Of a DNA stretch of 64,000 nt, positions 20,594 through 27,806 are shown one piece after another. Source of the stretch: Candidatus Microgenomates bacterium (GTDB lineage Bacteria > Patescibacteriota > Microgenomatia > UBA1406 > HO2-37-13b). The stretch spans positions 1-64,000 of the forward strand of contig JANWIV010000003.1 in NCBI GenBank assembly GCA_025449735.1. Reading direction: 5' to 3'. The number at the start of each line of letters is the position of its first letter. Position 1 is the stretch's first letter. A model generated the notes under the pieces. The model made no database searches and was not told the origin of the DNA. It saw only the letters and a program-made list of their open reading frames with translations. Position numbers and translations under genes: made by a program.

Positions 20594-23500
20594 ATGGCCA
20601 TACTTGATTTCCTCAAGAAGGATAGTAGTGATTCTAGTACAACAACACCAAATAGTGACGCCAGTGCTGTCCAAACAACTCAAACCACTACTCAAACCGT
20701 GCAACCGGTAGTTCCATCGCAGCCTTACAACGGTATTGGGTCACCTCCGGGAGGAGGACAGTCTTACAATGGCATTGGTGCCCCACCACAAGGCCAGGCT
20801 TATAGTGGTATCGGTACGCCAAATCAACCGGTTCAAACGCCTTCCAGTCAACCGGTAGCTACAAATGTCACTCCTACCGCACCAAGTGCAGTCACTACTG
20901 ATCAAGCTAGTCCAAGCGCGACTTCAGCCCAAACACCGGCTGGCGATAAAAATCCAACTCCTACTCCAGGCGCGACTCCGCCGGCCGAAGGTCAAGATAA
21001 ACAAACTCAACTTGATTTAATGACTCACTTGACACAACGCTCTAATCGAGTGTTTGTCGAAGCGCAAAAAAAGGCTAGTGAACTAAAGGTTGAGCTTGTT
21101 GACTCTGAACATGTCCTTCATGGGCTCTTGTCTGATTCAGAAATATACAAAATAATGACTGATGACAAAATTCAGCCACAAATGATTGAGCAAGAACTCG
21201 ATAAAATTTATCAAAAGGGAGCCAGTCAAACTACTCCCCAACCATCGCCACGCGTCAAGCGTATTCTTGAAAACTCACTCATCACGGCTCGTAAACTAGG
21301 CTATGAATTTATCTCCCCTGAGCATATTTTACTCTCACTATATGAGGAGGGTGAAGGCGCTGGAGCCCGAATTCTTTCTAAATTAGGGCTTAAAAAAGAT
21401 GATTTAAATAAAAAAATAACTGGTAAAAAAGAAGGTTTGAAAGAAGACGCTAAAGATGGCGACAAAACGACTGGAACCCTAGAACAGTATTCAGTTGACT
21501 TGACCGCCAAGGCCGAACAAGGACTCCTTGACCCAGTGGTGGAGCGAAGTGAGGTCATTGAGAGAGTAATTCATATTTTGTCTCGACGAACCAAAAACAA
21601 TCCTTCACTTATCGGTGAGGCGGGAGTGGGAAAAACAGCAATAGTTGAGGGACTGGCGCAAAAAATTGCCAGCAAGCAGGTACCAGAGTCTTTAATTGGG
21701 AAGCGCGTCCTTAAGCTTGATCTAATGAGCATTCTAGCTGGTGCTAGTCATCGAGGCGAATTTGAAGAAAGAATGAAGAAAGTAATCGACGAAATCGTCG
21801 CCTCAGAAGGTAAAATCATTTTATTTATCGATGAAATCCACAATTTAGTTGGTGCTGGAGCTGGTGGTGAAGGCTCTCTTGATGCTTCAAACTTCCTCAA
21901 ACCATCGCTCGCCCGCGGTGAGTTGCAACTTATTGGCGCCACTACCATCACCGAATATAGGCGGTATATTGAAAAAGATCCAGCGCTCGAGCGACGGTTT
22001 CAACCGATTGTGGTGCCGGAACCAACGATTGAACAAAGCATCAAAATGCTCAAAAGTCTTCGCGAAAAATATGAAGCCTTTCACCGAGTCAAAATCCCAG
22101 ATGCTGCCATAGAAACTGCCGTCAAGCTTTCCAAGCGCTACGTCGGTGATCGATATCTTCCTGATAAAGCCGTTGACTTGATTGATGAGGCGGCAGCGGC
22201 AGTAAGATTGCCACTCATTTCCTTGCCTGAAGAAATTAGATCAAGCGAAGAACGATTGGCACAACTCAAGCAAGAAAGTGATGAGTCGACAAAAAGCGGT
22301 AATGCTGTCAAAGTCAGAATCTTGAAATCAAAAATTGATGATCTTGAAGTCGAGCTAAAAGACAAACAAAGTCAATATGAGCTTAAGAAGGGTCAAACCA
22401 CTAGCGAAGTGACACCTGAAATCATCAAAGATGTTATTGCCCGCTGGACCAGCATACCAATTTCAAAAATAACCGAATCTGAGGTGGAAAAACTGAAAAA
22501 ACTTGAAGATATCATGCATGAGGAGTTGATCAATCAAGATAATGCCGTTTCCTCGGTCTCTGAGGCGGTGCGTCGTGGCCGAGCTGGTCTTAAATCAACC
22601 AATCGCCCGGTGGGAAGCTTCATCTTCTTAGGACCGACTGGAGTCGGAAAAACCGAACTCGCTAAGGTGCTGGCTGGAATTCTCTTTGGCCAACATGAAG
22701 CAATGATTCGATTTGACATGACAGAATACATGGAAAAACATGAGGTCGCCAAAATGCTTGGTGCCCCTCCAGGATATGTTGGTTATGAAGAGGGTGGCAC
22801 ACTTACAGAAGCAGTTCGCCGCAAACCCTACAGCGTAGTCTTATTTGATGAAATTGAAAAAGCACACCCTGATATTTTTAACATTCTGCTGCAAATTCTT
22901 GATGATGGCCGGCTAACAGACAACAAAGGCCATGTAATCTCATTTAAAGAAACCGTCGTCATTTGCACCTCAAATATCGGTACCAAGACAATCCAAGATG
23001 AAATAATGGCTAGTGGCAAAATTGATATTGAAGAACCAAATGTCCTTTCCACTTTTGCTTTCTCTCCAAGAGGACGACAAATAATGACCATTATGGGCAA
23101 AGTCTTTGAAAAAGATGGTGCGGGCGGTAAATGGAATAATAAGACATTGCTTGATTATTTTGCTGGTTCCCAAATTATCGCTCCACAGAAGAATGTCGAT
23201 AATAATGAAGCAAAAAATAGCGAACCTTCAAAAACCAAAACTTTCCCTGGTAAAGAATTTCATAGTCACGCTATGTCTTCAAAAGGAGTGGAGTTAATTA
23301 CCGTAGATGATACCATGTATATTCGCACCTCTACCACCGCCAAAGAATGGACGGCTATTAGTCTTATTGATTATTTCAAGGATTCTGTAGTCATCAATGC
23401 TTTGCCTGATGCTCCAGAGGAGCAGCTGCCGACAGCGAGAGTCAATACTCATGCCTTTACTCCAGATGAGCGAGAAATTGTCACATTGGCCGATCGTTAT

Positions 23501-24655
23501 TGGACACGAAAAGAAAGTGATAAAAATTGGCAAACAGGCACGCTTAAAGATTATTTCGCTGACTCAACATTGGCCCCAGCCAGCGTTAATGATGGAGCTC
23601 AGAAAAACCCGTCACAAAATATGCCGACTGACCCAAACAAAACAGGATTGCCCAAGGATTCTGGATCAACAAAACCTGGGCTACCAATCAACTATTGGGA
23701 TATCCATACCATCGCTCCTGACTCTTCAGAATATATTGTAGTTGGCGACGATATTTATACTCGCAAGCAAGGAGCTAAAATATGGGCAAAACAGGATTTG
23801 AAAACATTCTTCGGAGCCGATTTCCCAATTGAAAATGAGCTGGAAGAGAAGCAAAAAGTTGAATCCGAACTGGATAAAAATAAATATGAAAGAACTAAAG
23901 CGAAAGTTATGGGTCAACTAAGAGACTTTATGCGTCCGGAGCTTATCAATCGATTTGACGAAGTAATCATCTTTGAACCGCTGAAGTATATTCACATGAT
24001 CAGCATTGTGGAGCTTAATCTAAAAGCATTAACTCACCTAATGGAAGATCAAGATATGGGCTTCTCCTGGACAGAAGTTGCGGCCAAAGAAATCGTCCGT
24101 CAAGGCTTTGATCCAATATATGGGGCCAGACCGCTTCGTCGCACCATTCAAAAATTAATCGAAAATCCAATTTCCAGCCTCATCATCGAACACAAGGTTG
24201 AAGCGGGCAGCGCAGTTCATGTTGATTTTGATGGAGAAAATTTTGTCTTCAATATCGAACATGTTGAGCTTGTACCGGAATCTAGTTTGAAGGATAAAAA
24301 AATCCGTAAATTTATGTGTGTCGATAGTCATCATATGTTTGACACTGAAGTGCCTGAAAATGCCACTATCATTTGCCCAATTAATGCCGGCGAACCAGTC
24401 AAGGAGGTCATCGAAGATGAAAAAGAGACGGCTACTGATAATTCAAAAGCAACTATTGAAACTCCCGACAAATTTAATTCAAGCGTTGAGCCAAACAAAA
24501 TAGCAACGTTGAAAACTGAGCCAAATCTCAATCAAGCATCAAGCGCTCCACAATCTACTCCTGAGATGAAGAATCTCCAAGATAGGTTGACTACTGCTAG
24601 CAATGGTAATGGACACCAAACTCGTCCGGTTGTTGGCTTAGGTAGCGCATCATGA
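20594..24655 (+). CDS. ClpC-like AAA+ unfoldase with a repeat insertion in the second ATPase domain
   Basis: The 1353-residue protein is much longer than ClpC (about 810). In order: a Pro/Gln/Thr-rich segment with YNGIG repeats (1-135), a Clp N-domain (about 140-260), ATPase 1 with GEAGVGKT at 341-348, a short ClpC-style middle domain (about 550-610), ATPase 2 with GPTGVGKTE at 680-688, and a low-complexity tail. Between the sensor-1 TSN (792-794) and RPELINRF (1114-1121) ClpC has about 40 residues; here there are about 320. This insertion holds four related modules at 820-856, 892-928, 952-988 and 1038-1073, each ending W...L.DYF or similar. It replaces the ClpP-docking loop region. Its last codons overlap the next gene. 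Confidence 0.93.
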
Positions 24656-24996
24656 TATCTACAATTCTTGCTCAAAAACTAAATATTGGTGGTCGCACTA
24701 TTGAAGGACCCTTAAAAATAACTCTTCCAGGCGGGGCTGAAAATACTGATCCTAAACTGGGTGATATTGTCAGTCTTTTATTTGCCTTAATTTTGCCCAT
24801 TGCCGGCTTGCTGCTATTTTTTTACCTAGTCGCCGGAGGCTTCAACATCATGATGTCAAGAGGTGAACCGGAGGGTCTGGAAAAGGGGAAAAAAAGAATT
24901 ACCTCGGCACTAGTAGGATTTTTTATCCTCTCGTTGGCCTTCATATTCAGTAAGCTTCTAGGTCGCATTTTTGGCCTTGGTGGCGGAATTTTTTAA
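24652..24996 (+). CDS. Two-helix TrbC/VirB2-like membrane protein
   Basis: The 114-residue protein has a short polar N-terminus and two hydrophobic segments (about 45-67 and 85-105) joined by a basic loop, [15 protein letters not shown]. This pattern, with a GG.N.M..G.PE.....K.RI core, is that of small TrbC/VirB2-like proteins common in Patescibacteria. In secretion systems such proteins form pili; here no other secretion genes are nearby. The start overlaps the Clp stop as ATGA, so the two products are made together. Function unknown. Confidence 0.75.
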
Positions 24997-25087
24997 ATCT
25001 GGCATGAAAGTTTATAAACATCTATGATACAATATGATCTTGAAGTGAGAAATAAACAAAAATATTGGCAGTGAAGAGAAACCCTAT

Positions 25088-25114
25088 CCCCGACATGGAG
25101 TCGGGGTTTTTTTT
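25088..25114 (+). terminator. Intrinsic terminator just upstream of the kinase-methyltransferase gene
   Basis: CCCCGAC-ATGGA-GTCGGGG (25088-25106) is followed by eight T. It ends only 6 bases before the ATG at 25121. It may close the clp unit. Since a TACAAT box lies upstream at about 25028, it may instead act as an attenuator in the leader of the next gene. Confidence 0.9.
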
Positions 25115-25120
25115 AAAATT

Positions 25121-26458
25121 ATGTTTTTAAAACCTAAGATCCAAGAAGTAATTGTGCTTTCGGTTGGGGGTAGTCTAATTGTCCCCAATGGTGGTATTGA
25201 CGTCAAATTCTTGCGCGATTTTAATGATTTTATACGCAAACATATTAAGAAAGGTCGTAAATTCTTTATTGTCATTGGCGGTGGTCAAACTGCAAGAAAT
25301 TTTATCGATGCCGGTAAACGTATCGTCGACCAGATGCCTGATGAAGAGCTTGATTGGCTCGGGATTCATGGTACTCGGTTGAACGCCCATCTTATTCGAA
25401 CTATTTTCAGAGATATTGCTCATCCCAGAATTATCACTAAATATGACAGGCGCGCTTTTGGAATTAAAGAACCGGTGATTATTGGCGCTGGTTGGGAACC
25501 GGGTTGGTCAACCGACTATGATGCGGTGCTACTAGCTCGCGATTATAATGCGTCAGTCATCATCAACTTATCTAATATCGATTATGTCTACAACAAAGAT
25601 CCTAATGTCTACAAAGATGCCAAACCAATTAAAAAAACTACCTGGCAATATTTCGAGACACTTGTCGGTCAAGAATGGGTACCTGGCACCAGCGCCCCCT
25701 TTGATCCAGTTGCTAGCCAACTAGCCAAGAGACATGGAATAACTGTCATCATCACTAATGGTCATAAATTCAAGAATTTAGAAAATATCCTCAATGGCGA
25801 ATCATTTAAAGGCACTGTCATCACTCCATACAAAATTGATGCGACCTTTTACGATCGAGATTATTTTGAGGGGGACAAAAGCGAATATGCATGGGCCTAT
25901 ACCCAATCTTTTTTTGGCCGATTTTTAAATTCTTTGGTCAATCTTTATCGAGCAGCTTGGATTGCCTGGGTAATTAAGCCTAAGAATTGTCTCGATGTCG
26001 GCTGTGGCACTGGACTTCTCGTCAAAAACTTAAGAAAATTTGGTATCGAAGCTTATGGTATTGAAATCTCTCAATACGCACTTGATCGAGCTGATAAACA
26101 AGTAAAGCCTTATTTAAAATTCGGCGATATCACCAAAATTCCTTATGAAGCGGACACTTTCGACGTTGTCGTCACCTTTGATGTGCTTGAACATCTAGAG
26201 CGATCAAAATTGCGCCGTGCCATTGATGAATCGGTAAGAGTTAGTCGTAAATATGCCATTCATAAAGTGTTTACCAATGAGAATTATTATTTGCGCTGGT
26301 TTCACAAAAATGATTTTTCGCATTTGTCAGTCCTCAGCAAGCACTTTTGGTTAAAAATGTTTCAATATATAGATGATGCCGTAATAGTCCGCAAGCTTCT
26401 CTTTAGACTACCTTCTTTTTTTGAAACCATTTTTATTCTCCGAAAAAAAACCAGTTAA
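25121..26458 (+). CDS. Fusion of archaeal-type UMP kinase and a SAM-dependent methyltransferase
   Basis: Residues 1-230 form an amino-acid-kinase-fold domain with LSVGGSLIVPNGG, VIGGGQTAR, STDYDAVLLA and NLSNIDYVYNKDP, the pattern of archaeal-type UMP kinase that makes UDP. Residues about 280-445 form a class I methyltransferase with CLDVGCGTGLLVKNL (motif I) and VTFDVLEHLE. Both domains look intact and there is no internal stop or start at the join. I know of no common fusion of these two activities. The methylated substrate cannot be told; the C-terminal part resembles small-molecule methyltransferases. A terminator hairpin sits directly before the ATG. Confidence 0.85.
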   Translation: MFLKPKIQEVIVLSVGGSLIVPNGGIDVKFLRDFNDFIRKHIKKGRKFFIVIGGGQTARNFIDAGKRIVDQMPDEELDWLGIHGTRLNAHLIRTIFRDIAHPRIITKYDRRAFGIKEPVIIGAGWEPGWSTDYDAVLLARDYNASVIINLSNIDYVYNKDPNVYKDAKPIKKTTWQYFETLVGQEWVPGTSAPFDPVASQLAKRHGITVIITNGHKFKNLENILNGESFKGTVITPYKIDATFYDRDYFEGDKSEYAWAYTQSFFGRFLNSLVNLYRAAWIAWVIKPKNCLDVGCGTGLLVKNLRKFGIEAYGIEISQYALDRADKQVKPYLKFGDITKIPYEADTFDVVVTFDVLEHLERSKLRRAIDESVRVSRKYAIHKVFTNENYYLRWFHKNDFSHLSVLSKHFWLKMFQYIDDAVIVRKLLFRLPSFFETIFILRKKTS

Positions 26459-26759: not shown

Positions 26760-27806
26760 ATGATTTTAGAGTCTATCTCTCTTTCCCACTTCCGCAGTTT
26801 TGAAGATTCAATAATTAATTTCAGTCCTGACATAACTATTATCCTTGGTAAAAATTCTGTCGGCAAAACTAATCTACTTGAATCAATCAGTCTGATTCTC
26901 ACCGGCAAAGGTGTCAAGGAAGAGAAAGTTGATGAGTTTATTGCTTTTGATAAAAATAAAGCGACGATTTCGGCAGTACTAATTGATAATGATGATAAAC
27001 TAAACATAAGAGTCACCATAAAAAAATCAGAGCTCGGAATTGATAAAATCTTTCAAATAAATAAAACCATCAAACGTCTTTTTGAATATAGCCGGTCTAC
27101 ACCACCTATCGTCATCTTTACTCCTCAACAAATAAAAATCATCGATGGGTCGCCTGCCAAGCGCCGCGATTATATTGATATGGTCTTATGTCGAGTTGAT
27201 AGAAATTATTCCAAATCACTAAGAATTTATAACCAAGGTTTGCGCAAAAGAAATAAGGTGTTGGAGCAGAAAAAGCCTCTTGACCTAATTAGGCAGGAAC
27301 TAGTCTTTTGGGATAATTTGTTGATTGAACATGGCGCTTATATCAGTGAAAAAAGAACTGATCTGATTGAATTTTTCAACTTGCAAGGCAATGTGAACAA
27401 TCATCACTTTACTGCTAAATATATTAAAAATGAAATAACGAAGGATTCATTGGAACGAACTTTTGAAAGATCAATCTACAGTCGACGGACTGCGGTTGGA
27501 ATTCAAAAAGATGATTTCGAACTTACCTTGGCTGAAGAAAAGAAGTCTATTAACGTCCATAAATTTGGCTCACGCAGTGAACAAAGGCTAGCACTGTTTT
27601 GGCTTGCGATTAGACAACTTGATTATTTTGAAAAGAAAATCGATATTAAACCGATTCTACTTTTAGATGATGTCTTCTCGGAGCTAGATCTAGTGAATAA
27701 AGCAATAATTTTTGACATGATTGATAAATATCAAACTATTTTGACAACTACCGAAAAAGAGGTGATTGAAATGATTTCAACTCCACACGAGGTTGTTAAA
27801 TTATGA
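26760..27806 (+). CDS. recF: DNA replication and repair protein RecF
   Basis: The protein of 348 residues has an SMC-like ATPase layout: SLSHFRSFED at the N-terminus, Walker A LGKNSVGKTNLLE, the signature region HKFGSRSEQRLALFWLAI and Walker B LLLDDVFSELD. RecF loads RecA at gaps through RecO and RecR. The frame continues 12 codons upstream, but TATAAT at 26748-26753 ends 6 bases before ATG 26760, so that start was chosen. The signature GSRSEQR differs somewhat from the usual SQGQQR. Confidence 0.9.
   Translation: MILESISLSHFRSFEDSIINFSPDITIILGKNSVGKTNLLESISLILTGKGVKEEKVDEFIAFDKNKATISAVLIDNDDKLNIRVTIKKSELGIDKIFQINKTIKRLFEYSRSTPPIVIFTPQQIKIIDGSPAKRRDYIDMVLCRVDRNYSKSLRIYNQGLRKRNKVLEQKKPLDLIRQELVFWDNLLIEHGAYISEKRTDLIEFFNLQGNVNNHHFTAKYIKNEITKDSLERTFERSIYSRRTAVGIQKDDFELTLAEEKKSINVHKFGSRSEQRLALFWLAIRQLDYFEKKIDIKPILLLDDVFSELDLVNKAIIFDMIDKYQTILTTTEKEVIEMISTPHEVVKL

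Follow-up and report, generated by a model that had tools for sequence, protein, structure and literature searches.

Known archaeal-type UMP kinases (TIGR02076), such as those of Pyrococcus furiosus (2bmu) and S. solfataricus (2j4j), are proteins of about 220-245 amino acids that carry no C-terminal enzyme. The protein described here shares with them the kinase domain, the fold and the residues that contact the nucleotides, but it adds about 200 residues of methyltransferase. This second part has motif I, the acidic residue after strand 2 and the LEH motif in common with the Methyltransf_11/23/25 group (PF08241, PF13489, PF13649), from which it differs in being a separate subfamily fused to UMP kinase. 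Fusions of a GT4 domain with a methyltransferase occur in other Patescibacteria (loci L169 and L170); their C-terminal methyltransferase is related to ours (profile A3 scores them at 123.5 and 120.6 bits) and that of L169 also has the FYNRDYF-type start. In those two cases, however, the partner is a glycosyltransferase encoded in a glycan cluster, whereas here it is a kinase. The region ahead of the gene resembles the pyrE and pyrBI attenuators of enteric bacteria, in which a ribosome at the stop codon of the leader reaches the terminator. As in those, many relatives of the gene have a promoter, a short leader ORF, a stop about 6-19 nt before the terminator and the gene adjoining, but the gene is that of a UMP kinase and the leader ORFs are near-leaderless.

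In the window, by which we mean the whole stretch of 64,000 nucleotides that was analysed, the fusion gene occupies positions 25121-26458 of the forward strand. The initial annotation had read here a single uninterrupted frame with the domains of both activities, an archaeal-type UMP kinase and a class I SAM methyltransferase. Both the frame and the domain names hold, since the frame starts with ATG, contains no internal stop and encodes 445 amino acids, and TIGR02076 and the Pfam models are matched above their cut-offs. The kinase domain comprises residues 10-235 (25148-25825, +) and the methyltransferase domain residues ~241-445 (25841-26455, +), the latter delimited by Pfam Methyltransf_11/25/23 and alignment A3. 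The junction and the start of the methyltransferase (residues 236-262; 25826-25906, +) contain the conserved Y244 and Y248, and no in-frame ATG, GTG or TTG was found in residues 226-263. AlphaFold2, run on an alignment of 48 sequences, gave a model (mean pLDDT 86.9, pTM 0.69) with two well-predicted domains and, between them, a poorly predicted stretch at about residues 241-257; an earlier model from four sequences had reached a pLDDT of only 42.8. As the same full-length frame occurs in other genomes, the fusion is real and conserved; it unites two known families and belongs to one branch of Patescibacteria.

The kinase half is matched by Pfam AA_kinase (residues 10-213, E 6.7e-27) and scores 180.4 bits with the NCBIfam model TIGR02076, pyrH_arch, whose cut-off is 158.05. 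A fold search with the model, in which the matches listed concern the kinase half alone, aligned it with P. furiosus UMP kinase 2bmu_A over 223 residues (Z 29.6, rmsd 1.9) and also matched 2j4j. Arg49, Tyr146 and Asp149 of the P. furiosus enzyme, named in PMC12404492, correspond in the alignment to R59, Y157 and D160, and the positions of E. coli Asp77 and Thr145 to D78 and T131. Six residues (R59, D78, T131, D132, D160 and D195) are invariant in the 46 fused proteins compared, and position 157 holds Tyr in 42 of them and Phe in the other 4; three of the 46 deviate elsewhere, at the glycine-rich positions compared or at their Ser.

Two AA_kinase genes were found in the genome of the window, a draft of four contigs estimated to be 88.7% complete. 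The other one passes the cut-off for isopentenyl phosphate kinase (174.6 versus 120 bits), so a second UMP kinase is rejected and the fusion is the sole UMP kinase candidate found, which answers, for a genome of this completeness, the question raised in the initial annotation of whether another such gene is present. Pfam cytidylate kinase was likewise not found above its cut-off in this 88.7% complete genome. The isopentenyl phosphate kinase gene (G000:C3:192915-193637, L006) adjoins a gene that appears NUDIX-like by eye. Judging from these sequence features, the N-terminal domain would be the cell's UMP kinase, converting UMP and ATP to UDP and ADP.

The methyltransferase half is matched by Methyltransf_11 (PF08241) at residues 291-377 (E 2.5e-17; 63.7 bits, gathering score 21.2), and its SAM motif I, read from the sequence as DVGCGTG at residues 292-298 (25994-26014, +), is intact. 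None of the NCBIfam methyltransferase models reaches its cut-off on the window protein. In 281 genomes of the class, 27 methyltransferase matches exceeded 200 bits, and every one shares its frame with kinase sequence; the frame is at least 439 aa long in 26 cases, and in the remaining one it measures 352 aa and the kinase is shortened. The best non-fused methyltransferase scored 129.6 bits in these genomes and 131.8 bits in 379 genomes of the phylum, against at least 218 bits for the fused domains, and five unfused genomes of the order gave no separate match at E 1e-18. The methyltransferase is thus a subfamily of its own, seen only fused to UMP kinase in the 281 genomes of the class. From its motifs, the C-terminal domain is expected to bind SAM and to methylate a small acceptor.

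A scan of contigs, in which the best 80 of 400 candidate loci were retained so that the proportions are no census, gave 36 loci whose match covers both halves within a single frame (402-454 aa; L039-L074), one split case (L075) and 43 loci that have just the kinase. The fused loci are mostly labelled Roizmanbacteria, Microgenomates or just Patescibacteria, and one of them (L042) lies on a record deposited as a chromosome, CP066689.1. The domain pair, which the initial annotation proposed to look for elsewhere, is therefore present at full length in independent genomes. Its statement that no standard fusion of these activities is known also stands, as a search of PMC article listings found no paper describing the UMP kinase-methyltransferase pair, or Roizmanbacteria with it.

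In the order to which the window belongs, the kinase profile matched in 71 of 83 genomes and had no match in 12. With frame length taken as a proxy for fusion, 45 of the 71 have frames of at least 405 aa and 13 have short ones (234-300 aa, one with an internal stop); one gene is in pieces at contig edges and 12 matches are weak and probably represent other kinases. The methyltransferase itself was checked in sequence for 46 fused rows and one shortened row. Throughout the class a strong kinase match was found in 133 of 372 genomes, 37 of which belong to the order of the window, and frames of at least 439 aa account for 32 of these 37 and for 3 of the 96 elsewhere (G091, G100 and G261). In a fourth case outside the order, G103, the methyltransferase is joined to a shortened kinase and lies beside a full but divergent one. 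This divergent full-length kinase (L173:3179-5166, -), in which GGS is replaced by RGS, scores 145.3 bits with TIGR02076, below the cut-off; it adjoins the methyltransferase joined to the shortened kinase, ahead of recF, and the genes beside the pair look by eye like pyrE and pyrF. Of the eight genomes in the family of the window, four have the fusion, one has the kinase alone and three have no amino-acid kinase; these three (G001, G003 and G004), which accordingly show no UMP kinase of the archaeal type, are drafts 77-87% complete.

The fusion gene is followed by recF (26760-27806, +; TIGR00611 above cut-off) and preceded by a gene for a small, type IV secretion pilin-like membrane protein (24652-24996, +; PF18895), a relative of which stands upstream in 27 of 46 fused rows. 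By phmmer, 43 of 46 full fusions and 37 of 51 unfused kinase genes are followed by recF; this test replaced an earlier motif-based one, which had given 31 of 47 and 13 of 51. The fusions that lack recF as the next gene are L060, L071, where 63 bases of contig are left, and L150. Further upstream in the window lies a gene for a ClpB-like ATPase of 1353 aa (20594-24655), with an insert of ~320 aa (about residues 805-1130) within the second AAA+ domain that contains repeats of the kind FSPxGxxIxxxGxxIYxRK...W...LxDYF; similar pieces were seen by eye in L009, L010 and L011.

Since fused and unfused kinase genes share the place before recF, the methyltransferase was added at the 3' end of a kinase gene that already occupied this position. 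On a tree built from 96 kinase rows, seven changes of the label 'fused' are required, compared with a mean of 32.3 after shuffling, and unfused genes are nested among fused ones. The hypothesis that the fused kinases form one clade, with no loss or transfer, was rejected (AU p 0.0188, on a quick tree from which rows L075, L077 and L118 had been left out beforehand), which together with the nesting indicates later losses or transfers. A tree of the methyltransferases separates the fused domains, with weak support (71), from seven relatives outside the fusion, and places the four cases from other orders outside a well-supported group (100) formed by the order of the window. The same shared site would suit a passenger, that is, a methyltransferase with a job of its own that became fused merely by landing between UMP kinase and recF. 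Such a reading also agrees with the higher rate at which the methyltransferase evolves (in the 46 fused proteins its pairwise identity averages 50%, against 66% for the kinase) and with the loss of the domain in some lineages. We consider it possible but doubtful, as no close unfused relative was found and the junction is conserved in different families and orders, an indication that the tether either has a role or leaves no way back.

Both domains are under purifying selection. In the least diverged pairs (L069/L070, L067/L073, L053/L054 and L045/L046) dN/dS ranged from 0.02 to 0.09 in the kinase and from 0.04 to 0.17 in the methyltransferase, rough values because synonymous distances are large; L053/L054 gave 0.037 and 0.041 for the two domains and the methyltransferase of L069/L070 gave 0.166. 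SAM motif I fits our own pattern in 30 of the 46 fused proteins, including that of the window, and departs from it in 16, some by one residue and L073 by lacking the motif, so catalysis is unlikely to be retained everywhere. The drift is found mostly in one sub-clade (L061-L070, L074, L136 and L139), and the LEH motif also drifts in one sub-clade. H381, T385, S400 and W410, on the acceptor side, are kept in the sub-clade with the drifted motif I, a pattern that fits a domain still binding its partner while catalysis may be changing. Several lineages have kept the kinase although their methyltransferase domain is lost or has drifted, so the kinase can do without it.

C-terminal ligand domains are known on other amino-acid kinases, namely ACT in aspartokinase and PUA in glutamate 5-kinase. 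By analogy, the methyltransferase domain could be a regulatory SAM sensor of the kinase that is not, or no longer, a catalyst, and the drift of motif I and LEH in one sub-clade, in a domain still under purifying selection (L069/L070) and with its acceptor-side residues kept, would be compatible with this. On the other hand, motif I is canonical in most fused proteins, that of the window among them, the conserved acceptor-side residues argue for a bound substrate and the kinase of unfused relatives works without the domain, so that we regard a pure sensor as unlikely. We give still less credence to an extended version, in which the methyltransferase fold, turned into an allosteric SAM-binding domain in part of the lineage, would gate the UMP kinase by SAM and tie UDP synthesis to one-carbon status, in combination with a pyrimidine-sensing attenuator that acts through a leader ORF.

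The gene neighbours in the 64-kb window give no hint of the methyl acceptor. Six non-fused relatives of the methyltransferase were inspected, of which four stand among unrelated genes and two are tied to glycosyltransferase domains or glycan clusters: one forms the C-terminal part of a glycosyltransferase whose gene belongs to a transporter-linked glycan cluster, and the other stands behind a glycosyltransferase-like piece in a nucleotide-sugar cluster. The association of these two, which are among the nearest outside relatives, with glycosyltransferases leans towards a sugar over RNA, and as a weak guess the acceptor might be an envelope sugar or a sugar intermediate. The idea of the initial annotation that the fusion may couple UDP supply to methylation of a nucleotide sugar or RNA is thus a conjecture. 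The partner domain, a UMP kinase, could instead suggest RNA or a nucleotide near the kinase substrate as the acceptor; this seems improbable, as the nearest outside relatives include the glycosyltransferase fusions, and searches of Pfam and NCBIfam found neither an RNA-binding domain nor an RNA-methyltransferase family above cut-off in the window protein. As for a misassembly, or a frame break between two separate genes, which the initial annotation had named as what would undo its reading and which the fragmented state of the draft might invite, the full-length fusion in 36 of the best 80 of 400 loci, one of them on the deposited chromosome, and by frame length in 45 of the 83 genomes of the order leaves it practically no chance, and it is rejected.

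The sequence before the fusion gene contains a terminator-like hairpin with a 7-bp stem and a T8 tract (25088-25114, +), ending 6 nt before the start codon. Rfam gave two matches on this leader, both taken as chance, and the fold of the leader is not exceptional (z -1.31). One of the two, to Hrs1 at 25074-25114 (-), lies over the hairpin and is weak, below the gathering score. With a strict definition, a terminator stem ending within 25 nt of the start was present in 23 of 47 fused genes, in 4 of 51 unfused ones and in none of 162 control genes, these being other genes of the same loci; it is missing in the remaining 24 fused genes. Such a hairpin was found before none of 24 pyrG and none of 15 pyrE-like genes in the order, a count made from the first possible start codon that may miss cases, which indicates that it is no general pyrimidine switch.

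Of 47 fused genes, 41 have a perfect TATAAT in the 150 nt ahead of them, where shuffled sequences have it in 9.4 on average; for the 51 unfused genes the figures are 11 and 6.6. No excess of -10 elements was found within 45 nt of the hairpin (11 of 23, shuffle mean 12.1), the promoters being further upstream. With looser hairpin rules, TATAAT precedes the hairpin by 20-85 nt in 21 leaders, 20 of fused genes and one of an unfused gene (L076). Of these 21, 17 contain an ORF that starts with ATG, has five codons or more and ends before the stem (shuffle mean 3.1; 0 of 1000 shuffles reached 17), with its stop 6-19 nt before the stem; if the stop is allowed inside the hairpin the count is 19 of 21 (shuffle mean 3.7, again 0 of 1000). 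The leader peptides are dissimilar while position and length are kept (L053 and L054 both have 10 codons and identical offsets), which points to translation and not to the peptide. In lineages without the hairpin, TATAAT mostly lies 6-25 nt before the start codon.

The gene in the window has no perfect TATAAT upstream. Tentative -10 elements, TATGAT and TACAAT, each matching at 5 of 6 positions, occur at 25023-25033 (+), and a possible leader ORF of nine codons, tentative because of its GTG start, lies at 25045-25074 (+) with its stop 13 nt before the hairpin stem. Given the imperfect -10 and the GTG-started ORF, the attenuator layout is probable here. In many relatives, promoter, leader ORF and terminator directly before the fusion gene, in the region that corresponds to 25023-25120 of the window, look like the layout of a transcription attenuator. 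Whether the fusion gene is in fact attenuated we rate, from this layout, as evenly balanced; UTP as the signal, by analogy with pyrE and pyrBI, is a tentative suggestion.

On balance, the explanation that we favour as probable is that of a bifunctional UMP kinase and methyltransferase with a leader of attenuator type. Its core would be an archaeal-type UMP kinase, probably a hexamer like its relatives, in which case several methyltransferase domains would sit on one kinase core. The tether would keep both activities at one place and in one dose, with no substrate passed between the sites. The fusion gene would form its own transcription unit, and in many relatives, probably also in the window, transcripts would have to get past a terminator that separates the start codon from a short leader ORF. 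If a ribosome halted at the leader stop, it would cover the 5' arm of the terminator and permit read-through, and such a pyrE/pyrBI-like attenuator could answer to UTP.

Gene regulation in Patescibacteria is, in our judgement, hardly known, and the leader described here gives this group a concrete example in which transcription attenuation is likely. Moreover, an essential step of pyrimidine metabolism is welded to a methyltransferase across an order of ultra-small bacteria, which have few genes to spare, and the methyl acceptor would reveal what the UMP kinase step is tied to.
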